Shown here piece by piece: positions 439 through 52,761 of a stretch of DNA of 64,000 nt (the stretch's first letter is position 1; the number at the start of each line of letters is the position of its first letter). Below the pieces are notes generated by a model. The model saw nothing but the letters and a program-made list of their open reading frames with translations. It was not told the DNA's origin and ran no database searches. The stretch spans positions 62,001 through 126,000 of the forward strand of contig JAHCHG010000013.1 in NCBI GenBank assembly GCA_026129865.1. Direction: 5' to 3'. Source of the stretch: Pyrinomonadaceae bacterium. GTDB taxonomy: Bacteria; Acidobacteriota; Blastocatellia; Pyrinomonadales; Pyrinomonadaceae. The translations under genes and the position numbers were made by a program.

Positions 439-1338
439 TCAACCGCCAGTGATCTTCGGAAGCCGAACGATGAATGTCGTCCCGCGGTTTTCTCCTTTGC
501 TTTCGACGAAAATTTTTCCGCCGTGTTTTTTTACGATCGTTTGCGCAATATGCAGCCCGAGCCCGGTCCCTTTCGTCGCCTGTGTTGAAACATTCGGAAT
601 TCGATAAAAGCGCTTAAAAACGCGTTTTTGTTCGGCGCTTAGAATTCCGACGCCGGAATCCTTGATCAAGATTTCCGTAAAATTTCGGTTCAGATCCGTC
701 AATTTTACATTGACCTTGATCTCATTGGCTGAATACTTTACGGCATTATCCAAAATGTTGGTCAAAACCGTCTGAAGTTCCGAACGATCGCCCGAAATAA
801 GTATCTTTTTCGCAGGTTCGATAAATTTTATCTCGTCCTCAAGTTTATAGCGCGAACGGATGATCGCCGTACATTCCTGAATAAGTTCGCCGAGATCGAT
901 CTCGGAAATGTTCAGCAGCCGGTTTCGGTCTTTTGTCCGGCTGGTCAATAAAACCTGCTCGACGGTGTTCAGCAGGCGGTCCGTGTCCGACAGCATTGTG
1001 TCGTAAAACTCGCGCCGTTTTTCTTCAGAAACCTCGCGCGCGCGGAGCGTTTCCAGATAAAGCTTGATCGAGGCGATCGGAGTTTTCAGTTCGTGCGTCA
1101 CTGCATTTAGAAACGCGTCCTGCTGTTCGTTTCTTCTGATCTCGCGGATAAGAAAGATCATATTCAAAACCAATCCGGTAATGATCAATGCGAAGAAAAC
1201 GACTCCCAAAACCAGCATCGCAACTTCGCGAAGGTTCAGAATGATCCAGCCGACATTAAGCGCAACCGCAAGTGCGACCAGCGTAATTCCAAGAATCAGA
1301 ACAATAACAGCCGCGCGTTTGCGACCTGCAACTCTCAT
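439..1338 (-). CDS. Sensor histidine kinase, two-TM, no extracellular domain
   Basis: A 299-residue membrane histidine kinase. Two hydrophobic helices (about residues 9-33 and 38-64) are separated by only a few residues, so there is no periplasmic sensor domain and the signal is probably sensed in or near the membrane. A HisKA dimerisation helix follows, with the phospho-accepting H82 in THELKTPIA. The C-terminal HATPase_c domain shows the N box (LDNAVKYSANE), G1 (DSGVGIL), F (KRFYRI) and G2 (GTGLGLHIA) motifs. It is the upstream gene of a pair with the response regulator. The function class is certain; the stimulus is unknown. Confidence 0.92.
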   Translation of the reverse strand: MRVAGRKRAAVIVLILGITLVALAVALNVGWIILNLREVAMLVLGVVFFALIITGLVLNMIFLIREIRRNEQQDAFLNAVTHELKTPIASIKLYLETLRAREVSEEKRREFYDTMLSDTDRLLNTVEQVLLTSRTKDRNRLLNISEIDLGELIQECTAIIRSRYKLEDEIKFIEPAKKILISGDRSELQTVLTNILDNAVKYSANEIKVNVKLTDLNRNFTEILIKDSGVGILSAEQKRVFKRFYRIPNVSTQATKGTGLGLHIAQTIVKKHGGKIFVESKGENRGTTFIVRLPKITGG

Positions 1339-1444
1339 AAATCCAGTTTAAACGCTAAATCGCAGCCGGGAAAATTAAAAAGGGAAGATCGAAGATTAAT
1401 TCTCCGTTTCTTCCCCGTTCTTATGCCTAATTTAATGGTTCTTT

Positions 1445-2320
<876 letters not shown>

Positions 2321-2556
2321 TGCAAATCCCCTAAATAATTTATGATTTCAAGAACGGCTATTCCCGCCCGAGTTAAATCCTAACAGGTTTTAGGGAATGT
2401 AAATGTAAGAGTTTTGTAATAGGTTTTTTTAGCGCGTCTTGACATTAAACTAGCGGATTTTCTGCCCGTTCCTGGAGGGCGCAGGACATTGCCAAACACA
2501 AGATTTGTAACTATTCTGTTTGCTAAGTTTTCACCTAATCGAAAAAGGAAGAGTTA

Positions 2557-5346
2557 ATGCCCCGCTTATCTCAACAGGAAATCCGCAGCAATGCAGTTAA
2601 ATTCGCCCATGAATGGAAGGGAGAATCGCGCGAACGTGCCGAAGCACAGTCGTTTTGGAATGATTTCCTTAATATTTTCGGGATCAAGCGGCGGCGTGTC
2701 GCGATATTCGAAAAGGCGGTTCCGAAAAATAATGAGAATACCGGTGCGATCGATCTGTTTTGGAAAGGCGTTTTGCTCGTAGAACATAAATCCCTCGGAA
2801 AGAACTTCGATAAAGCAGAAAGCCAGGCGTTCGAGTATCTTGAAAATTTGCCGGAAAACGATCTGCCGGAATTGGTTTTGCTCTCCGACTTCGCAAAGTT
2901 TCGCCTCTATAATCTGGAAACGAATGAAGAGATCGAATTTCTTCTCGAAGAACTTCCAAACCATATTCATCGATTCGGCGCGATCTCAGGATATCAACAA
3001 CGCATTTATAAAGAACAAGATGCGGTAAATATCGCCGTGGCGATGAAACTTGGCGAGCTTCACGATGCTTTGCTTGACAGCGGTTATACCGGGCACAAAC
3101 TTGAAGTTTTCTTAGTTAGACTCGTTTACTGTCTTTTTGCCGATGACACAGGCATTTTTCTTCCGCGGAGCAGTTTTCTTTACTTTCTGGAAGAAAAGAC
3201 ATTGGAAAACGGCGCAAATTTGGGCGCTATGCTTCAATTGCTCTTTCAGATACTGGACACGCCCGAAAGCACCAGACAAAGCACGATCGACGAAGATTTG
3301 CAGCAGTTTCCTTATGTCAACGGAGATCTTTTTCGCGAAAGAATGGATTTGCCTTTCTTCGACAAAAAGATGCGTCAAATTTTAATCGAAGCGTGTTCGT
3401 TCGATTGGAGCAAAGTTTCGCCCGCTATATTCGGCTCTTTGTTTCAATCGGTAATGGACAAAGACAAGCGGCGAAATTTGGGCGCGCATTACACATCTGA
3501 AAAGAATATTTTGAAAGTTATTCACGGACTGTTTCTCGATGAACTTTACGAAGAATTTGAAACCGTCAAAAACAATCAAAACCGCTTGCGGGAATTTCAC
3601 GAAAAGATTTCCAAATTGAGATATTTCGATCCGGCTTGCGGCTCCGGAAACTTTCTCGTTATCACATATCGCGAAATGCGGCTTTTGGAAATCGAGATCT
3701 TGAAACGTCTGCGCGAATTGACGGGAAATGTTCAGCTTGAACTGGATATTTCCAAGATCTCAAAAATTGATGTTGATGCGTTTTACGGCATCGAATTCGA
3801 AGAATTTCCGGCGGAAATCGCCCGAGTTGCTTTGTGGCTGACCGATCATCAGGCGAATATGAATCTTTCGGCGGAATTCGGTTTGTCGTTTGTCCGCCTG
3901 CCTTTGCGTAAAAGCGCGAATATCGTTCACGGCAACGCTTTGCGAATTGATTGGAGCGAAGTTGTTTCGACAGACGGCAGCGAAACCGAAACGACGCTTT
4001 ATATTTTAGGGAATCCGCCTTTTATCGGAAAGGATAAACGAACGCCGGAACAAACGGCGGATATGGAGTTTTGCTGCTCCGATGTTAATAATTTCAAAAC
4101 GCTCGATTATGTTTCCGCTTGGTTTATCAAAGCCGCAAAGTTTATTGAAAACTCAAAAATAAGTGTCGCTTTCGTTTCGACAAATTCGATCACTCAAGGC
4201 GAACAAGTCGGCATTTTGTGGAGTTATTTACTTGATAAAGGCGTAAAGATTCACTTTGCGCACCGAACTTTCAAATGGAATAACGAAGCAAGCGGCAACG
4301 CGCAGGTTGAGGTAGTAATTTCGGGCTTTGCTTTTTTCGACAGAAAACAGAAAAGACTTTTCGATTATCAAACGCCAAAGTCTGCACCGCACGAAATAAG
4401 CGTAAAAAATATCAATCCTTATTTAGTCGATTCCGCCGATACAGTCGTAACAACAAGGCGGAAACCGCTTTGTGATGTTCCCCAATTGATTTATGGAAAT
4501 AAACCCGTTGACGGCGGAAATCTTTTCTTAAATGGTGAAAAGGAAAGAGCGGAATTTTTAGCCGTAGAACCGAACGCGGAAAAGTTTATTCGCCGGATTT
4601 ATGGTTCGGAAGAATTTATAAATGGAATCGACCGCTTTTGTTTGTGGTTGAAAGATGCATCGCCGACTGAATGGAGAAATTTGCCCGCCGTTGTCGAAAG
4701 AGTTCAAGCCGTGCGTGACTTTCGTTTGAAAAGCACAAAAGCCGCGACTGTGAAACTTGCAGAAACTCCTTATTTATTCGCAGAAATTCGGCAGCCGGAA
4801 AGCGATTTTTTAATTATTCCACTTACATCTTCAGAAGGTCGGCGTTACGTTCCAATAGGCTTTTTCCCGAAAGAAATCTGCGTAAACAATCTTGTTTCGA
4901 TCGTTCCAAACGCAACGCTTTTTCTTTTCGGCATTTTGACTTCGACAATGCACAACGCCTGGATGCGGCAAGTTTGCGGGCGTTTGAAAAGTGATTATCG
5001 TTATTCAAACAATCTCGTTTACAACAATTTCCCGTTTCCGAAATCACCGACGGACAAACAGATCCAAAAAGTTGAACAGACGGCGCAGGGCATCTTAGAC
5101 GCGCGGGAAAAATTTCCGGACGCAACTCTTGCAGATCTTTACGATCCGCTGACAATGCCGAAAGAACTTCTCGACGCACACCACGCAAACGATGTCGCGG
5201 TCGATCTATGTTACGGCAGAATGAGATTCAATACTGACTTGGAACGTTTGGAATATTTGTTTGCGCTCTATCGGGACTATACAGAGCCTTTGGCAATGAT
5301 CGAAGAAGACGAAAAAAGAAAATCTAAACGCAGAAGGAAAAATTGA
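2557..5346 (+). CDS. MmeI-like single-chain restriction endonuclease / adenine methyltransferase (Type IIL)
   Basis: A 929-residue protein matching the MmeI architecture (MmeI itself is about 919 residues). The N-terminal domain carries a PD-ExK nuclease signature D66-X9-E76-x-K78, with the D-X9-ExK spacing known for MmeI. A helical linker leads to a gamma-class N6-adenine methyltransferase domain with SAM motif I (FDPACGSGNF, 357-366) and catalytic NPPF (486-489). The C-terminal third should be the target-recognition domain and a helical tail. Family members cut about 20 nt to one side of the recognition site and modify only one strand, so no separate methyltransferase is needed; none is nearby. 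SD-like AGGAAGAG lies 5 bp before the ATG. No frameshift or missing catalytic residue is visible, so it may be active. Confidence 0.9.
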   Translation: MPRLSQQEIRSNAVKFAHEWKGESRERAEAQSFWNDFLNIFGIKRRRVAIFEKAVPKNNENTGAIDLFWKGVLLVEHKSLGKNFDKAESQAFEYLENLPENDLPELVLLSDFAKFRLYNLETNEEIEFLLEELPNHIHRFGAISGYQQRIYKEQDAVNIAVAMKLGELHDALLDSGYTGHKLEVFLVRLVYCLFADDTGIFLPRSSFLYFLEEKTLENGANLGAMLQLLFQILDTPESTRQSTIDEDLQQFPYVNGDLFRERMDLPFFDKKMRQILIEACSFDWSKVSPAIFGSLFQSVMDKDKRRNLGAHYTSEKNILKVIHGLFLDELYEEFETVKNNQNRLREFHEKISKLRYFDPACGSGNFLVITYREMRLLEIEILKRLRELTGNVQLELDISKISKIDVDAFYGIEFEEFPAEIARVALWLTDHQANMNLSAEFGLSFVRLPLRKSANIVHGNALRIDWSEVVSTDGSETETTLYILGNPPFIGKDKRTPEQTADMEFCCSDVNNFKTLDYVSAWFIKAAKFIENSKISVAFVSTNSITQGEQVGILWSYLLDKGVKIHFAHRTFKWNNEASGNAQVEVVISGFAFFDRKQKRLFDYQTPKSAPHEISVKNINPYLVDSADTVVTTRRKPLCDVPQLIYGNKPVDGGNLFLNGEKERAEFLAVEPNAEKFIRRIYGSEEFINGIDRFCLWLKDASPTEWRNLPAVVERVQAVRDFRLKSTKAATVKLAETPYLFAEIRQPESDFLIIPLTSSEGRRYVPIGFFPKEICVNNLVSIVPNATLFLFGILTSTMHNAWMRQVCGRLKSDYRYSNNLVYNNFPFPKSPTDKQIQKVEQTAQGILDAREKFPDATLADLYDPLTMPKELLDAHHANDVAVDLCYGRMRFNTDLERLEYLFALYRDYTEPLAMIEEDEKRKSKRRRKN

Positions 5347-5457
5347 TCTTACAGGAAAGTGTTTTCACAAAAGAAACAAGAAAGTGATCAAACGGCGCAT
5401 ATAGCTCGGTAATCGGCAGGTTTCTTTATTTATTTTTGTACTAGCAAAAGCTGGCGC

Positions 5458-5700
5458 TTAATATTCCGATTCTTCCGATTGCCGGAAGGGAATGTTTAGC
5501 TTGAGTAAAGCGCTTTCCAGTTCCCGGGCGCCTTGAAGATTTTCGCCGAAAGCGACGCCGCGCGGTTTTAGGTTGTAGATCGCTTCATACGCTTCGGCTT
5601 TTTCATCTTCGCTGATGGCTAATGCGCTTAGCGCTTTTTGAACCGATTCTTTGCTTATCCTTTTGTTTTCAACAACGTAAGGAATATTTATAAAAACCAT
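5458..5700 (-). CDS. Small hypothetical protein (80 aa)
   Basis: An 80-residue acidic, mostly helical protein that I do not recognise. It has no signal peptide, membrane segment or metal-binding motif. The C-terminal part (about residues 46-74, GVAFGENLQGARELESALLKL) looks like a helix-strand unit in which a short helix packs before a hydrophobic beta segment. It sits 58 bp upstream of acs on the same strand, but no convincing SD precedes the ATG. The composition looks like a real protein rather than a shadow, and nothing overlaps it. Confidence 0.55.
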   Translation of the reverse strand: MVFINIPYVVENKRISKESVQKALSALAISEDEKAEAYEAIYNLKPRGVAFGENLQGARELESALLKLNIPFRQSEESEY

Positions 5701-10930: not shown

Positions 10931-10963
10931 ATTATGCTGAAAATATCTCTCCGAACCAGTCGA

Positions 10964-11063
10964 AACCGCCTGCGTAAGCGGGCGGTTAAACGGCGCGATT
11001 CCGATTTCCGCGGAACATTTAGAACTCAAACTTAAACCATCCGCTGCCGCAGATGGTACTGAC
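10964..11063. repeat. Palindromic doublet, family alpha (REPIN-like), intergenic
   Basis: Two related palindromes in opposite orientation between rng and the next gene. The first, at 10964-10987, pairs AACCGCCTGC with GCGGGCGGTT. The second, at 11031-11063, pairs CCATCCGC with GCAGATGG and ends in GTACTGAC. The same doublet, with the GTCAGAACC-type ends outside or mirrored, recurs inside the M1 aminopeptidase gene and inside sufD. Confidence 0.7.
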
Positions 11064-28155: not shown

Positions 28156-28388
28156 TTGCTAACTCCCGTATTGTTAGAATTTTTGTGCCGTAATTACAAA
28201 AACGACATTGATGACCAAAAGAGGTCATATAATTTCTAAGAATCTTTTCGAAAACAGTATACCGCAACCGGTTTTCGAGAATGCGCACCTAAGAAACTGT
28301 TTGCACGATCAGGATCTTACATAGTCAAAGCTTTATTTATCTCCTTAAGGAGTTAAACTATTTGGAAACGATATCTAAAGAGTTCATC

Positions 28389-31300
28389 ATGAAGTTCAAA
28401 ATATTTTTCCTTCTCTTATTTTTTATGCTGCCGCAATCGAGTTTTTCACAAATGCCTGCCGTCGAACCGGGAGTTTCGCAAAAACTCGCACAATGGCGAG
28501 CCGCAAATTATTCGGATGTTCGATATAAATTGAATATCACTCTAGAAAAGATGGCGCCGCTGATGAAGGGCGAGATCGAGATTCGCGTTAATTTGACCGA
28601 AGAAGGCGCGAAGAACGATCTGATACTCGATTGGCGGACGACGCAGTTTGCGAATGATAAAGATAAACCGTTTGCGAATGTCATCGCCGTAAACGAGACG
28701 ACTGGAGCGCAAGCGTCCTCGCTTGCAAACGTCGCTGAAAGCGGCGTAAAAACTCTCGATTCCGATAACGATTCTTCGCAGCGGACATCTTTTTCGCGCT
28801 TCGCGCTCATTGCAGGCAGGCTGCCTGCGCTCCAGTCGCTTGCACTGCAGTCGAATGAGCATTTGATCATTCGGAAGAAATTCTTAAAGACGGGCGAAAA
28901 TGTTATCAAGATCGAATTCGCTTCGCCTATAAAGTCGTCGGGCGCGGCGGTGACGCGCTATGTTGACCGGATAGACGGCGCGGAATACGTCTATTCGCTG
29001 TTCGTCCCGTCGGACGCAAGCACGGCGTTTCCCGTCTTTGACCAGCCGGATTTGAAGGCAAAATTTAGTTTGCGAATTGTTGCACCTCTTGAATGGAAAG
29101 TTGTTTCAAATGAGAATTCAATCGAGCGTGTCGAAATACTATCTTCTGAAAAAGCGGAAAGAGAAAAGAAAATTGAAAAACTTCCAAACGGAAACACATT
29201 AGTAAGCACGAAAATTGATTCTGCATTAACAGTTTTTAGAAAGACGCGACCAATCAGCACATACGTTTTCGCATTTGCGGCGGGCGAGTTTGTGGAATTC
29301 ACGGATGATCGCGGAAAGGGCGGAAACGCGACTGCAAAGGAGCGTGCCGATATTCAAGGATCTGCGAGGGCGGGCAATCGCACGCTCCCTAGCGGTCGCG
29401 TTTCCGCCTCGAACGAATACAACACGGTTTCCGGCGATCGCGATATCGTGTCGAGTATTTACGTCTGCAAATCACAAGCCGAGAAATTCAAACAACACGC
29501 CGAAGAAGTTTTCCGGCTCAACCGCGAAGCTGTTAAATTTCTCGAAGATTGGTTTGATTACAAATTCCCGTTTCCGAAATACGATCTGGTTTTGATTCCC
29601 GAATTTCCGTTCGGCGGGATGGAACACGCGGGTGCGACTTTTCTGCGCGAAGACCGCATTATTTTCCCGACCGAGCCGACGAAAAACGATTACATTACGC
29701 GGGCGAATCTCATCTTTCACGAAGCCGCGCATCAATGGTTCGGCGACACGGTAACGATGCGCTGGTTTGACGATCTGTGGCTCAAGGAAGGCTTTGCCGA
29801 ATTTATGGCGTATAAAACGCTCGAAAAGGTTCTGCCCGAATACAATGCGTGGAAAGTCTTTTACGAGCGCAACAAACAAGCCGCCTATCTGACGGACGTA
29901 ACGCGCGGCACAACGCCGATCTATCAGGAAATCCCGAATCTCTCGTCGGCAAAATCCGCCTACGGCAACATCGTCTATCGCAAAGCACCTTCGTTTCTCC
30001 GTCAAGCCGAGTTTTATCTGGGCGAAGACAAATTTCAAACCGCCGTCCGCGCATTTTTGAAAAAACACGAATTTGCGAATGCGGAATGGAAAGATTTAGT
30101 TGACGAGTTTGTAAAAGCTAACGTCGCTGAATTAAAAAAACAGGATTATTATCAAAAATTTTCGGCAGAAGAAAAGGAAACAGCCGAGTTAGGTAAAAAG
30201 AATCAAATAAATGAATGGGCAAATGTTTGGGTAAAACATCCCGGAATGCCGTTAATAAGAGTTTCGCCTAAATTGCTTCTTTTACCTTTTGAAACTAAAG
30301 ATATGGTGAATATGGGTGAAATGGGCGGCGGAGCATTTTGGCTGACATATTTTTGGCAACGTCCGGCTGGAAGTGAGATTGGAAGTAAAGAAGCGATAAA
30401 CTCACAAAATAATAACTGGAAACAAAATATTGAAGTAATAAGAGTTTTTGGAGATGGCGACCGTGAAAAAGCAGTTGTTAATCTCGGATTCCAATTCTTT
30501 GATCTTTCAAAGATAGACTTTTCAAAAAGAGATGAATTTAAGTTTGATATTTCCGAAAAAGAAAGCAAAAAATTTGCAGAAGAATTTGAAGCAAAAAGAA
30601 AAGAGAGACTTAAAAAAAATCCGCTTTATGTTTTCCCAAACTACCAAGATTACGGCTACGGCATCTTTCTGCTTGACGAGAAAAGCCGCGCTTACGTTCT
30701 CGAAAATATCCAAAACGAAAAAGACGCGTTTTTAAGATCGATGATGTGGGGCAGTCTGTGGGATTCGGTCAGATTTTACGAACTCGCGCCCGAAGAATAT
30801 GTAAAACTCGTCATAGAGAATCTAAGTACAGAGTTGCGGCTTCAGCCGCGAGAAACGTCCGCATCGAACGGGAATGAAGGAAATGTAACCGGCTCGAACG
30901 CGAAGATCACGCCTAAAGGCGTTACTCTGACTGAGACAGAGTTGCGGCTTCAGCCGCGAAAAACGTCCGCATCGAACGGGAATGAAGGAAATGAAACCGG
31001 CTCGAACGCGAAGATCACGCCTAAAGGCGTTACTCTGAACATTGCAGAGTTGCGGCTTCAGCCGCGAAAAACGTCCGCATCGAGCGGGAAGGAAGGAAAT
31101 GAAACCGGCTCGAACGCGAAGATCACGCCTAAAGGCGTAACTCTGAACATTGCAGAGTTGCGGCTTCAGCCGCGAAAAACGTCCGCATCGAGCGGGAATG
31201 AAGGAGGTGTAACCGGTCTGGGCGCGAAGATCACGCCTGAAGGCGTAACTCTGACGGAGGGCGTAACTTTCGCGGAAGACGTAATCCCGTACGACGAAAC

Positions 31301-32222
31301 GACGATCGCCACGCTTCTAAACCGTGTTTCAACCGCGATGAATTATTATATCGAGGCGGCGGGCGGGGCACAGTCAGAACCGCCTTCGGCAGCGGGCGGT
31401 TTAACGCCGCCATCTAAAAACTCGAATGCAAAATCAAACTCGTCTGACGAAAAGCTTAAACCATCCGCTGCCGCAGATGGTTCTGACCTGCAAGCCGAAC
31501 TCGAAAAACTTCTGCTCGAAAAAATGCGAACCGCATCGACGCCCGGACAGAGAATAACTTTTTACCGAACGTTTGTTTCGATAGCAAGTTCGGAAAATGC
31601 GCGAAATGTTTTGAAGGAGATCTTACGGAGCGCCGGCAGCCTTGCCGGCAATGAGCGCGAAAGCGCGAAAAATGCTGCTCCGGAAGCCACACTCGCAGGC
31701 AGGCTGCCTGCACTCCGTTCGAAAGACAAATTTGACCTTGTAACCCGGCTGATCATATTGGGCGACAAAGACTCCCTAAAACTCCTCGCGGAACTCGAAA
31801 AAACCGAAACCGACGACGCGGCGAAACGCTATGCTTACGCCGCCCGCGCCGGAATTCCAACCTCTGAAAACAAAGCAAAATACTGGAAGGATTTCACCGA
31901 AAACAAGGAAATTTCGGAAAGCTGGATCGAAGCGGCGTTCGCCGTTTGGAATTCGCCGCGCCACGCCGAACTTACGCTGCCTTATCTCGAAAAAGCACTG
32001 GCGGAACTTCCGAATTTAAAGCGAAACAGAAAGATCTTCTTCGTCAACGGCTGGCTCGGCTCGTTTATCGGCGGGCAAAGATCGGCGGAAGCATTGAACA
32101 TCGTCAATAAGTTTCTCGATGAAAATCCGGATCTCGAGCGCGATCTAAGGTTAAAAATTCTCGAGCATTCCGACAATTTGGAAAGAGCTGTAAAGATCCG
32201 CGAAAAGTTCGCAAAGCGTTAG
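28389..32222 (+). CDS. M1 family zinc aminopeptidase with in-frame repeat insertions
   Basis: I choose the ATG at 28389 because it opens the signal peptide (MKFKIFFLLLFFMLPQSSFSQ); a TTG at 28362 with a better SD is possible. Counting from that TTG, the product is 1286 residues; M1 enzymes of this layout usually have 600-900. The catalytic zinc site is intact: H453, E454 and H457 of HEAAHQWFGD, E476 of LKEGFAE (HExxH-X18-E), and GGMEH at the place of the GxMEN exopeptidase motif near residue 416. Extra length comes from palindromic doublets read as peptide at about residues 114-159, 320-349, 824-964, 1005-1042 and 1089-1119. It should trim peptides in the periplasm or outside the cell. The insertions avoid the catalytic core. 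Confidence 0.9.
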   Translation: MKFKIFFLLLFFMLPQSSFSQMPAVEPGVSQKLAQWRAANYSDVRYKLNITLEKMAPLMKGEIEIRVNLTEEGAKNDLILDWRTTQFANDKDKPFANVIAVNETTGAQASSLANVAESGVKTLDSDNDSSQRTSFSRFALIAGRLPALQSLALQSNEHLIIRKKFLKTGENVIKIEFASPIKSSGAAVTRYVDRIDGAEYVYSLFVPSDASTAFPVFDQPDLKAKFSLRIVAPLEWKVVSNENSIERVEILSSEKAEREKKIEKLPNGNTLVSTKIDSALTVFRKTRPISTYVFAFAAGEFVEFTDDRGKGGNATAKERADIQGSARAGNRTLPSGRVSASNEYNTVSGDRDIVSSIYVCKSQAEKFKQHAEEVFRLNREAVKFLEDWFDYKFPFPKYDLVLIPEFPFGGMEHAGATFLREDRIIFPTEPTKNDYITRANLIFHEAAHQWFGDTVTMRWFDDLWLKEGFAEFMAYKTLEKVLPEYNAWKVFYERNKQAAYLTDVTRGTTPIYQEIPNLSSAKSAYGNIVYRKAPSFLRQAEFYLGEDKFQTAVRAFLKKHEFANAEWKDLVDEFVKANVAELKKQDYYQKFSAEEKETAELGKKNQINEWANVWVKHPGMPLIRVSPKLLLLPFETKDMVNMGEMGGGAFWLTYFWQRPAGSEIGSKEAINSQNNNWKQNIEVIRVFGDGDREKAVVNLGFQFFDLSKIDFSKRDEFKFDISEKESKKFAEEFEAKRKERLKKNPLYVFPNYQDYGYGIFLLDEKSRAYVLENIQNEKDAFLRSMMWGSLWDSVRFYELAPEEYVKLVIENLSTELRLQPRETSASNGNEGNVTGSNAKITPKGVTLTETELRLQPRKTSASNGNEGNETGSNAKITPKGVTLNIAELRLQPRKTSASSGKEGNETGSNAKITPKGVTLNIAELRLQPRKTSASSGNEGGVTGLGAKITPEGVTLTEGVTFAEDVIPYDETTIATLLNRVSTAMNYYIEAAGGAQSEPPSAAGGLTPPSKNSNAKSNSSDEKLKPSAAADGSDLQAELEKLLLEKMRTASTPGQRITFYRTFVSIASSENARNVLKEILRSAGSLAGNERESAKNAAPEATLAGRLPALRSKDKFDLVTRLIILGDKDSLKLLAELEKTETDDAAKRYAYAARAGIPTSENKAKYWKDFTENKEISESWIEAAFAVWNSPRHAELTLPYLEKALAELPNLKRNRKIFFVNGWLGSFIGGQRSAEALNIVNKFLDENPDLERDLRLKILEHSDNLERAVKIREKFAKR
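28701..28837. repeat. Palindromic doublet, family beta, inside the M1 gene
   Basis: The left arm 28701-28727 (ACTGGAGCGCAAGCG...CGCTTGCA) and the right arm 28811-28837 (TGCAGGCAGGCTGCCTGCGC...) are inverted relatives of the arms at 57185-57314 and 31625-31718. The doublet is translated in frame within the N-terminal domain. Confidence 0.75.
29319..29408. repeat. Palindromic doublet, family delta, inside the M1 gene
   Basis: GGCGGAAACGCGACTGCAAAGG at 29319 onward is mirrored, with a few mismatches, by GCACGCTCCCTAGCGGTCGC...CCGCC ending at 29408. It is translated in frame (GKGGNATAKERADIQGSARA ... SGRVSASNE), just before the GGMEH motif. Confidence 0.7.
30831..31252. repeat. Four-copy 108-bp tandem array of palindromic doublets, family gamma, in the M1 gene
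   Basis: Copies start at 30831, 30939, 31047 and 31155: an exact 108-bp (36-codon) period. Each copy begins GAGTTGCGGCTTCAGCCGCG and ends with GATCACGCC-TAAAGGCG-T(T/A)ACTCT, two palindromes in opposite orientation. The peptide unit is ELRLQPRKTSASNGNEGN plus SNAKITPKGVTL. Confidence 0.9.
31373..31487. repeat. Palindromic doublet, family alpha, inside the M1 gene
   Basis: TCAGAACCGCC...GGGCGGTTTAA at 31374-31402 is followed by its inverted relative CTTAAACCATCCGC...GATGGTTCTGAC at 31455-31487. In-frame peptides are SEPPSAAGGLTPPS and LKPSAAADGSDLQ. Confidence 0.8.
31625..31718. repeat. Palindromic doublet, family beta, inside the M1 gene
   Basis: ACGGAGCGCCGGCAGCC at 31625 is mirrored by GGCTGCCTGCACTCCGT ending at 31718. 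The arms are close to those of the intergenic doublet at 57185-57314. In frame. Confidence 0.8.
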
Positions 32223-49244: not shown

Positions 49245-50618
49245 ATGAATTCACAAACAGTAAAAGAAACGATTTATACAAAGGATTTTCAAAAGAGTCT
49301 GGAAAACGCGAATCAGCCGGAATGGTTGAAAAAATTGCGTGAAGAGGCTTTTCAGTTTTTTACGGAGAACGGTTTTCCGACAATCAAAGATGAAAATTGG
49401 AAGTATACGAATGTTAAAGAAGTAGTGAGCGGTGAGTGGTTAGTGAACAGGTCAGAACCATCTGCGGTAGCGGATGGTTTAAGGTCTATTACTGAGAATT
49501 CCGAGACCGGCGTTCAACCGCCCGCTATCGCAGGCGGTACTGACTTTGTTTTCGATGAATCGAAACAAAGCGTTCTGGTTTTCATGAACGGCGCGTTCGA
49601 TAGAAATCTATCGAATACGGATGCCTTGAAAGATGCGACGGTTTTGAGTTTTGCGGAAACGTCGAAAGATGAAAAATTATCCGAGATCTTCAAAACAAAA
49701 CTCGGAAGTTTAATTGGTTTCGAAAAAAACGGATTCACGGCTTTGAATACAGCGTTTATCGGCGAAGGCGTTTTTATACATTTGCCGAAAAACGTGAAAA
49801 TTGATGCACCTATTCAACTGCTTTTTATGACCGAAGACGGGAAAGTTTCGTTTCCGCGCGTTTTGGTTGTTGCAGAAGAATTTGCGGAAGCAACGATTAT
49901 CGAAACTTTTAACCGCACAGATGAAACGAAATATTTAACTAATTCCGTTATCGAAATCTCGCTCGCCGACGAAGCGAAGATCAAACATTACAGAGTTCAG
50001 CGCGAATCGCATCTCGCCTTTAACATCGGCGCGACGGGGACGGAAATCGGGCGCGGTTCGGTTTATGATGCGACGAATATCAATCTGGGCGCGAAACTTT
50101 CACGGCACGATATTGATTTCCGGTTCAACGCGGAAGGCGGCGAAGCGTTTGTTGACGGGCTTTATATGATCGACGACGACCAGCATCACGACACGCATTC
50201 GCTGATCGACCACGCTTTGCCGAACTGCGTTTCGCATCAAACCTATAAAGGAATTGTGGACGGCAAGGCACGCGCGGTTTTTAACGGAAAGATCCTTGTC
50301 CGCGAAAATGCGAGCGGGACTGACGGTTATCAATCGAACAAAAACCTTCTGCTTTCAAACGATGCGCGGGTTGATACGAAGCCGCAGTTGGAGATTTTCA
50401 ACGACGACGTAAAATGCGCTCACGGCGCAACCGTCGGGCAGCTCGAAGAAGAAGAATTGTTTTATCTCTTGAGTCGCGGCTTGAACGAATCTCTGGCGCG
50501 AAATCTTTTGACTTACGGTTTCGCCGAAGAGATCGTTAATAAAATTACGATCCCGTCGATCAAAAAGCAGTTGGACGAAGCGGTTTTGAACAGATTGAAC
50601 GCAAATTTGGAGGCATAA
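49245..50618 (+). CDS. sufD: SufD, Fe-S scaffold subunit, with in-frame repeat insertion
   Basis: A 457-residue SufD, the partner of SufB and SufC. Typical sequence: DENWKYTNVKEV near the N-terminus, GSVYDATNINLGAKLSRHDIDF, and the C-terminal HGATVGQLEEEELFYLLSRGL. The DNA at 49451-49544, coding about residues 69-100 (SEPSAVADGLRSI ... GVQPPAIAGGT), is a palindromic doublet of family alpha. It adds about 32 residues in a region that varies among SufD proteins, and the frame stays open, so the protein is probably functional. The ATG sits 1 bp after the HicA remnant stop. Confidence 0.96.
   Translation: MNSQTVKETIYTKDFQKSLENANQPEWLKKLREEAFQFFTENGFPTIKDENWKYTNVKEVVSGEWLVNRSEPSAVADGLRSITENSETGVQPPAIAGGTDFVFDESKQSVLVFMNGAFDRNLSNTDALKDATVLSFAETSKDEKLSEIFKTKLGSLIGFEKNGFTALNTAFIGEGVFIHLPKNVKIDAPIQLLFMTEDGKVSFPRVLVVAEEFAEATIIETFNRTDETKYLTNSVIEISLADEAKIKHYRVQRESHLAFNIGATGTEIGRGSVYDATNINLGAKLSRHDIDFRFNAEGGEAFVDGLYMIDDDQHHDTHSLIDHALPNCVSHQTYKGIVDGKARAVFNGKILVRENASGTDGYQSNKNLLLSNDARVDTKPQLEIFNDDVKCAHGATVGQLEEEELFYLLSRGLNESLARNLLTYGFAEEIVNKITIPSIKKQLDEAVLNRLNANLEA
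49451..49544. repeat. Palindromic doublet, family alpha, inside sufD
   Basis: GTCAGAACCATCTGCGG...CGGATGGTTTAA at 49451-49482 and its inverted relative TTCAACCGCCCGC...GGCGGTACTGAC at 49512-49544. The same pair appears at 10964-11063 and 31373-31487. Confidence 0.85.
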
Positions 50619-51197: not shown

Positions 51198-51520
51198 GGC
51201 GCGGAGAACTTTACAGAGTCGCAAAACCGACGAAAAATGATCCGAAAAACTTTCGTGTTTTTGTCGTAGTCGGGCGGTAGGAAGTTATCGAATCGAGTTA
51301 TTCGACGGTGATTTGTGCGCCGGTTTATACGAATTGTTTGGATATTAAAACGGAAGTTGAAATTGGAATTGACGAAGGTTTAACACACGATAGTTGCATT
51401 CGCTGCGACGAACTTTTTAGTATTCATAAATCGGTTTTGACAAATTTTGTCGGCACTTTGTCGGAAGAAAAATTACAAGAATTAAATGAAGCGTTAAAAA
51501 TCGCTTTAGTAATAAAATAA
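51191..51520 (+). pseudogene. mazF: MazF/PemK-type toxin with an in-frame TAG
   Basis: [29 protein letters not shown] then TAG (51278-51280, codon 30), then EVIESSYSTVICAPVYTNCL ... LTNFVGTLSEEKLQELNEALKIAL in the same frame. Homologues read RQE at this place, so the lesion is a single CAG-to-TAG change. Everything else matches a full-length MazF. It is an inactive allele unless the stop is suppressed. Its final TAA overlaps the sufS ATG (TAATG). Confidence 0.9.
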
Positions 51521-52761
51521 TGAAAGCAGTAAAAGAAATGAGTAGTTTTGATGTAGAAAAAATCCGCAAAGATTTTCCGGTTTTGTCGCAGACGGTTAAC
51601 GGAAAACCGCTTCGGTATTTGGATAATGCGGCATCTTCGCAAGTGCCGAATCTGGTGATCGAGCGCGGCGCGGAGTATTTGAAAAAGGAACATTCCAACG
51701 TTCACCGCGGCGTTCATTATCTTTCGCAAAAGGCGACGACCGAATATGAGGCGGCGCGCGAAAAGGTCCGGAAATTTATCAACGCAAAAGAAGCGAAAGA
51801 ATGCATCTTTGTCCGCGGCTGCACGGAAGGCGTCAATTTGGTCGCGAACGCTTACGGACGCAAATTTATCAACGAAGGCGACGAGATAATCCTGTCGCAG
51901 ATGGAGCATCATTCGAATATTGTTCCGTGGCAAATGATCGCCGAAGAGCGCGGCGCAAAGATTCGCGTTATTCCGATGAACGAAGCCGGCGAACTGATCA
52001 TTGACGAGTATGAAAATATGCTTAATGAACGGACAAAAATGGTCGCGGTCGCGCATATTTCAAACTCGCTCGGGACGATCAATCCGCTTAAATCAATGAT
52101 CGAAACAGCGCATAAATTCGGCGTTCCTGTTTGTGTCGACGGCGCGCAGGCGGTTCCGCATATTCGGGTCGACGTTCAGGATCTCGACGCCGATTTTTAT
52201 GTTTTTTCGGGACATAAGATGTTTGCTCCGACCGGCAGCGGTGTTTGTTACGGCAAGCGCGAATGGCTGGAAAAAATGGATTCGTATCAGGGCGGCGGGT
52301 CGATGATCTATACGGTAACGTTCGAAAAAACGACTTATGCGCCGATACCGGAAAAATTCGAAGCCGGAACTCCGGCGATCGCTCCGAGTATCGGATTGGG
52401 CGCGGCGATCGATTATTTGAATTCGATCGACCTCGACGCCGCGTTTGCGCACGAACACGAGCTTCTTGAATACGCGACCGAAAAATTATCGAAGATAGAA
52501 GGCGTCAAACTTATCGGAACGGCGAAAGAAAAGGCTTCGGTAATTTCGTTCACGCTTGAAAACGTTCACCCGCACGACATCGGCACGATCCTAGATCAGG
52601 AAGGCATCGCCATCCGCGCCGGACATCACTGCGCTCAGCCGGTCATGCAGTTTTACGACGTTCCCGCGACCGCGCGCGCTTCTCTGGCGTTTTACAACAC
52701 GAAAGAAGATGTTGACGTATTGTGCGATTCGATCCAGAAAGTGATCGATGTTTTTGCGTAA
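51520..52761 (+). CDS. sufS: SufS, group II cysteine desulfurase
   Basis: A 413-residue PLP enzyme that removes sulfur from cysteine for Fe-S assembly. It has the PLP Lys in FYVFSGHKMFAPTGSG, the active-site Cys in RAGHHCAQPVMQFY, and the SufS-type N-terminus (FDVEKIRKDFPVLSQTVNGKPLRYLDNAASSQ). MSSFD at residue 7 is an alternative start. SufU at 54406 is the expected sulfur acceptor. Its start is shared with the stop of the MazF remnant. Confidence 0.96.
   Translation: MKAVKEMSSFDVEKIRKDFPVLSQTVNGKPLRYLDNAASSQVPNLVIERGAEYLKKEHSNVHRGVHYLSQKATTEYEAAREKVRKFINAKEAKECIFVRGCTEGVNLVANAYGRKFINEGDEIILSQMEHHSNIVPWQMIAEERGAKIRVIPMNEAGELIIDEYENMLNERTKMVAVAHISNSLGTINPLKSMIETAHKFGVPVCVDGAQAVPHIRVDVQDLDADFYVFSGHKMFAPTGSGVCYGKREWLEKMDSYQGGGSMIYTVTFEKTTYAPIPEKFEAGTPAIAPSIGLGAAIDYLNSIDLDAAFAHEHELLEYATEKLSKIEGVKLIGTAKEKASVISFTLENVHPHDIGTILDQEGIAIRAGHHCAQPVMQFYDVPATARASLAFYNTKEDVDVLCDSIQKVIDVFA

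Follow-up and report, generated by a model that had tools for sequence, protein, structure and literature searches.

Palindromic repeats inside genes have been reported both for REPs and for Rickettsia palindromic elements (RPEs), so the phenomenon described below is already known in kind. GTAG and CGTC REPs occur in genes most frequently in O. terrae and R. conorii, and as dimers or grouped repeats they add 20-30 residues to hosts that include UvrD-type helicases and tRNA synthetases (PMC3733652). RPEs are, according to the summary in PMC10969869, palindromic repeats of about 150 bp that lie in frame in unrelated genes and are probably translated. REPINs and BIMEs of RAYT-carrying bacteria consist of two inverted REPs and a spacer, are associated with RAYT genes and in their classic form are extragenic (PMC3116915). 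PMC6006769 describes class 3 TnpAY1 transposases as rare, places them in Acidobacteria among other hosts and gives their flanking structures a CnGA foot.

The element analyzed here lies in the sufD gene of an acidobacterial genome, within a 64-kb window (by which we mean the whole stretch of DNA that was analyzed), and shares features with each of these systems. Like GTAG and CGTC REPs (PMC3733652), its family consists of short palindromes, often in dimers, that are found in ORFs, add about 20-30 residues and have similar hosts, but it differs from them in its GTCAG tag, its link to a TnpA with class 3 motifs, its occurrence in Acidobacteriota and its in-gene share of 15 out of 35 sites versus 1 out of 36 in relatives. 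In-frame palindromic inserts in unrelated genes are shared with the RPEs, which are set apart by their length and by belonging to other sequence families as far as they are described in PMC10969869. The arrangement of two inverted REPs around a spacer and the association with a RAYT recall REPINs and BIMEs, unlike which the copies are often in genes. Acidobacterial hosts, NHxH and Y----Q motifs and multi-copy flanking palindromes are shared with class 3 TnpAY1, although in-gene copies are not among the class 3 features taken here from PMC6006769.

The window contains a sufB-sufC-sufD-sufS cluster. Its sufD gene (49245-50618, plus strand) encodes 457 aa, matches NCBIfam TIGR01981 with 309 bits (cut-off 222) and has the predicted fold of E. 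coli SufD. The cysteine desulfurase encoded at 51520-52761 reaches 588 bits with the SufS model, which exceeds the cut-off of that model, but scores higher, at 665 bits, with the model for family 2A encapsulin cargo, whose cut-off is 800. As the initial annotation had proposed, a palindromic doublet lies in sufD at 49451-49544 (94 nt, no strand assigned), where two perfect arms of the family were found; the inverted pair can be written GTCAGAACCRYCTGCGGTAGCGGRYGGTT. The left arm, GTCAGAACCATCTGCGGTAGCGGATGGTT (49451-49479, plus strand), reads SEPSAVADGL, and the right arm, GTCAGTACCGCCTGCGATAGCGGGCGGTT (49516-49544, minus strand), reads QPPAIAGGTD on the plus strand, both being exact matches to the family motif. 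The 36-nt spacer between them (49480-49515, no strand assigned) codes for roughly RSITENSETGV, and in family doublets the spacer edges, that is, the bases adjoining the arms, are partly conserved. Taken as DNA, 49451-49544 folds better than 200 out of 200 shuffles (z -4.2). The doublet codes for residues 69-100 of SufD with no stop within the open 457-aa frame, again as first described, and the further doublets that had been placed after rng and in the M1 gene were both found: an intergenic one downstream of rng, a gene of the RNase E/G family (10959-11063), and one that, like the sufD copy, lies within a gene, that of the M1 peptidase, where it is in frame (31373-31487, in the ORF 28293-32219), neither with a strand assigned.

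It had also been predicted that the segment would be missing from the SufD of some relatives. In a comparison of 30 loci from related genomes, including the window's own, and 80 named-genome records, with the nearest genome compared belonging to another genus, it was missing in the other 29 related loci and in 79 of the 80 records; the last of these (L223) ends before the site. The genome nearest by SufD (80% identity) has no copies of the family. The string SEPSAV in one further SufD (L175) was considered as a remnant of the element and rejected, the underlying DNA being unrelated and giving no match. From WKYTNV to the core the sequence varies in length, some clades being about 40 residues shorter there. 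Between the conserved flanks there are 44 residues in this SufD versus 24 in the nearest relatives, so the addition of about 32 residues originally claimed holds for the doublet, which spans about 32 codons, but not for the protein, whose net gain is 20. About 12 ancestral residues were thus replaced or lost, and since the net gain of 60 nt is smaller than the 94-nt element, either the insertion was not simple and clean or a deletion came afterwards.

The AlphaFold model of SufD, based on a 53-sequence alignment, has a mean pLDDT of 90.2 and superimposes on E. coli SufD (5awf_B) with a Z of 49.7 and an rmsd of 1.9 A over 405 residues. The insert is the sole low-confidence internal stretch of the model, with pLDDT values of 55, 46 and 50 for residues 71-80, 81-90 and 91-100 versus 84 and 93 in the neighboring blocks. 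The low pLDDT together with the match to the E. coli fold leads us to predict that the insert forms a disordered loop outside the conserved SufD core. The proposal that SufD tolerates the insertion agrees with this model, in which the fold is kept, and the insert would presumably be harmless to the protein. Recruitment of the loop to serve SufD, for example as a new contact in the SufBCD complex, would suit its being kept intact and in frame, but this appears very improbable given the disorder predicted for it, the SufD proteins of relatives, which manage without it, and the presence of the same peptide in a dozen or more unrelated proteins.

The genome from which the window comes (G000; 4.4 Mb, 21 contigs, 95.8% complete) contains 66 arms of the family at no more than two mismatches, versus none for the reversed pattern used as a control. 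Among 60 arms from the regions fetched, the foot is GTCAG, conserved at 97-100% at its main positions, and the stems covary, with compensatory changes among ATC/GAT, GCC/GGC, GTC/GAC and ACC/GGT pairs. The same regions hold 21 inverted doublets, and the family was found in 34 out of the 60 genomes searched. It thus combines a multi-copy short hairpin with the inverted-doublet arrangement of REPs and REPINs, although its GTCAG foot is neither GTAG (or GT[AG]G) nor CGTC, and the sufD copy, like 15 out of 35 sites in this genome, is not extragenic. We did not take an extragenic location as defining, because published REPs include in-gene ones (PMC3733652). Spacers measure 36-57 nt in most copies here versus about 16 nt in most copies of a related genome, G014.

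The insertion in sufD is not an isolated case, being one of 15 in-gene sites. A site was counted as internal if at least 45 codons lay on either side of it within a stop-free ORF that was 200 codons or longer, gene membership being judged from stop-free ORFs and profile hits with no gene caller. By this definition, 15 out of 35 sites were internal in this genome versus 1 out of 36 in relatives, which were sampled and not surveyed in full (Fisher test; p 4e-5), and 60% of random 90-nt stretches of this genome were internal by the same criterion. In G014, none of 17 family sites falls in any ORF of more than 110 codons, and in six other genomes the family reaches long ORFs almost only close to their ends. 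Hosts named by profile are sufD, kynU (kynureninase), thrA (aspartate kinase/homoserine dehydrogenase), the C-part of alaS, metH, xdhA, a uvrD/pcrA-type helicase gene, purL and a gene for a glutamate-synthase-type oxidoreductase; kmo (kynurenine 3-monooxygenase) was identified by PDB hits, and the other in-gene hosts include an M1 peptidase, an M14 peptidase and a GH15/esterase fusion. Survivorship, in which old intergenic copies would have been lost once the transposase died, was considered as a source of the in-gene share and found unsupported: in-gene and intergenic arms are equally near the consensus, which argues that the in-gene copies are not merely older survivors.

The in-gene copies share a reading frame. 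Counted by hand, 15 out of 16 forward in-gene arms are in the frame that gives SEPSAVADGL-like peptides, the remaining one, in alaS, reading VRTACGSGRL; as only two frames lack an intrinsic stop, the choice between them was tested, and the bias has a one-sided p-value of 2.6e-4, which treats the copies as independent, not strictly so for those in kynU. A decayed arm in xdhA uses a different frame. Each of the nine in-gene doublets tested (9/9) is open in the frame of its gene, versus about 17% of the frames through intergenic doublets, a comparison that is partly circular in that an open frame itself defined in-gene status; the circularity spares the shared frame and the independent host-family profile hits that flank the insert. 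The shared and open frames point to translation of the segments, as a skipped segment would be under no such constraint, and the proteins would then seem to have additional floppy loops. The doublet is able to form a strong hairpin, and ribosomes bypass hairpins in some other systems. A mature SufD of normal length would result if the segment were skipped in expression, by ribosome bypassing or by excision from the RNA or the protein, in a byp-like, intron-like or intein-like manner. The open frames of the in-gene doublets and the single frame of their forward arms both speak against such skipping, and the 94 nt code for no splicing or intein protein; we therefore regard it as very improbable.

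Insertion can also be followed at other hosts. Relatives have an empty site in uvrD, which is 30 aa longer here (net 90 nt), and in alaS, which is 36 aa longer here (net 108 nt); the monooxygenase and PurL have PDB homologues without inserts, and the metH doublet sits in a linker whose length varies among relatives. The idea, prompted by the net length in sufD (60 nt, or twice a 30-nt arm), that the spacer is an ancestral SufD segment around which two arms were added one at a time was rejected as highly unlikely, because the net gains in uvrD and alaS include the spacer and because the family shows conservation at the bases adjoining the arms.

The sole alaS found in G000 is split (L082, G000:C4:18500-27500; ORFs at 1964-2854, 2858-3154, 3141-3428 and 3590-5638). 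Its N-part codes for 296 aa and its C-part for 682 aa, and between the two lie a small ORF and a gene for a toxin of the BrnT type (PF04365, E 3e-21); either the enzyme functions in two pieces or alaS is decaying. In the relative G005, alaS is split at the same point by different cargo, namely an ORF of 96 aa and a TnpA of 150 aa that is IS200-like. In G016 alaS is intact, but where the others are split it has a segment, spanning approximately residues 293-339, that resembles some 16 other stretches of the G016 genome. The loci concerned are L345 (G005:C57:24500-30500, at 1028-1876, 1815-2105, 2252-2704 and 2709-4847) and L346 (at 517-3435). This junction has the look of a hot spot for insertions. 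The G005 alaS (L164) also contains another palindromic doublet of 90 nt, GTCAGTAGCCC...GGGCTACTGAC, which starts with GTCAG and occupies the same place as the copy of the present family in the G000 alaS; two palindrome families at one site hint at target choice. A second palindrome family in G000, CGCAGGCAGGCTGCCTGCGCTCC, has 45 matches in the genome and is in frame in genes at 3 out of 20 sites. It occurs in the M1 peptidase gene of the window at 28811-28833 and 31694-31716, and this gene also contains a 108-nt tandem repeat (30829-31254, about 36 residues per unit), so that, with the doublet, three kinds of repeat have been collected by one gene.

A candidate transposase for the family is found in relatives. 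In G014, a gene for a 169-aa protein has family doublets on both sides; a gene of this G014 type lies at L112:1396-1905 on the minus strand. REPs of the family lie at one or both ends of homologous genes of 69-82% identity (L121-L125 and L141) and of one of 60% (L128), the exception being a copy of 73% identity with a stop (L126), which is not among the REP-flanked homologues. The association of a RAYT/TnpA_REP gene with flanking REPs of the family is seen in relatives at L120-L125, L141 and L128, and TnpA genes with the same flanking REPs occur in G014, G017, G003, G005 and others. Both the NHxH and the Y----Q motifs are present in all but a few of 28 TnpA homologues, by which motifs the enzyme would be placed in the class 3 type of the Y1-HuH superfamily. 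Most arm feet read CAGA, which fits CnGA, and the CAGT arms do not. In the window's own assembly the cognate gene was not found, the nearest homologue there being 40% identical and lacking family flanks, so the cognate enzyme is either absent or in the missing 4% of the genome. The genome's own RAYTs were rejected as a source: none of 13 Y1_Tnp genes has this family at its ends, and several are flanked by other palindromes. The CGCAGGCAGGCTGCCTGCGCTCC family flanks another RAYT (L083, G000:C12:118340-118513).

Taken together, with a probability of about 0.86, the sufD segment is a translated REP doublet, and the transposase of its family in relatives is a TnpA_REP/RAYT. It would be a REPIN-like, BIME-like non-autonomous doublet, mobilized and transposed by an enzyme of the kind with class 3 motifs that appears to serve the family in relatives, and it would have inserted in the linker that joins the helical N-terminal part of SufD to the beta-helix core, with about 12 ancestral residues now missing. 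Its length and position would leave a stop-free frame, so that it would be expressed as a surface loop of small residues that is probably disordered (SEPSAVADGL...QPPAIAGGTD) and that SufD may tolerate because the linker was already of variable length among relatives. Most likely the element is selfish or neutral. We also consider, as a doubtful extension, that evolution in this lineage has made the REP doublet compatible with protein coding, in that the form with a long spacer maintains an open frame for a soft, soluble loop. If so, such a doublet can spread through coding DNA at near random density and is not confined between genes.

This case differs from the precedents in its GTCAG tag, its link to a class-3-type transposase and its lineage, and in how this genome contrasts with its relatives. 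In-gene behavior known from GTAG and CGTC REPs and from the Rickettsia elements is extended to what appears, from the transposase genes of relatives, to be a REP pair that has colonized coding sequence in Acidobacteriota and is associated with a transposase of class 3 type. The same REP family lies between genes in sister genera and in essential-type genes here, and the peptide shared by its hosts can be searched for by proteomics. The family thus offers a natural experiment in how transposable palindromes turn into protein sequence.
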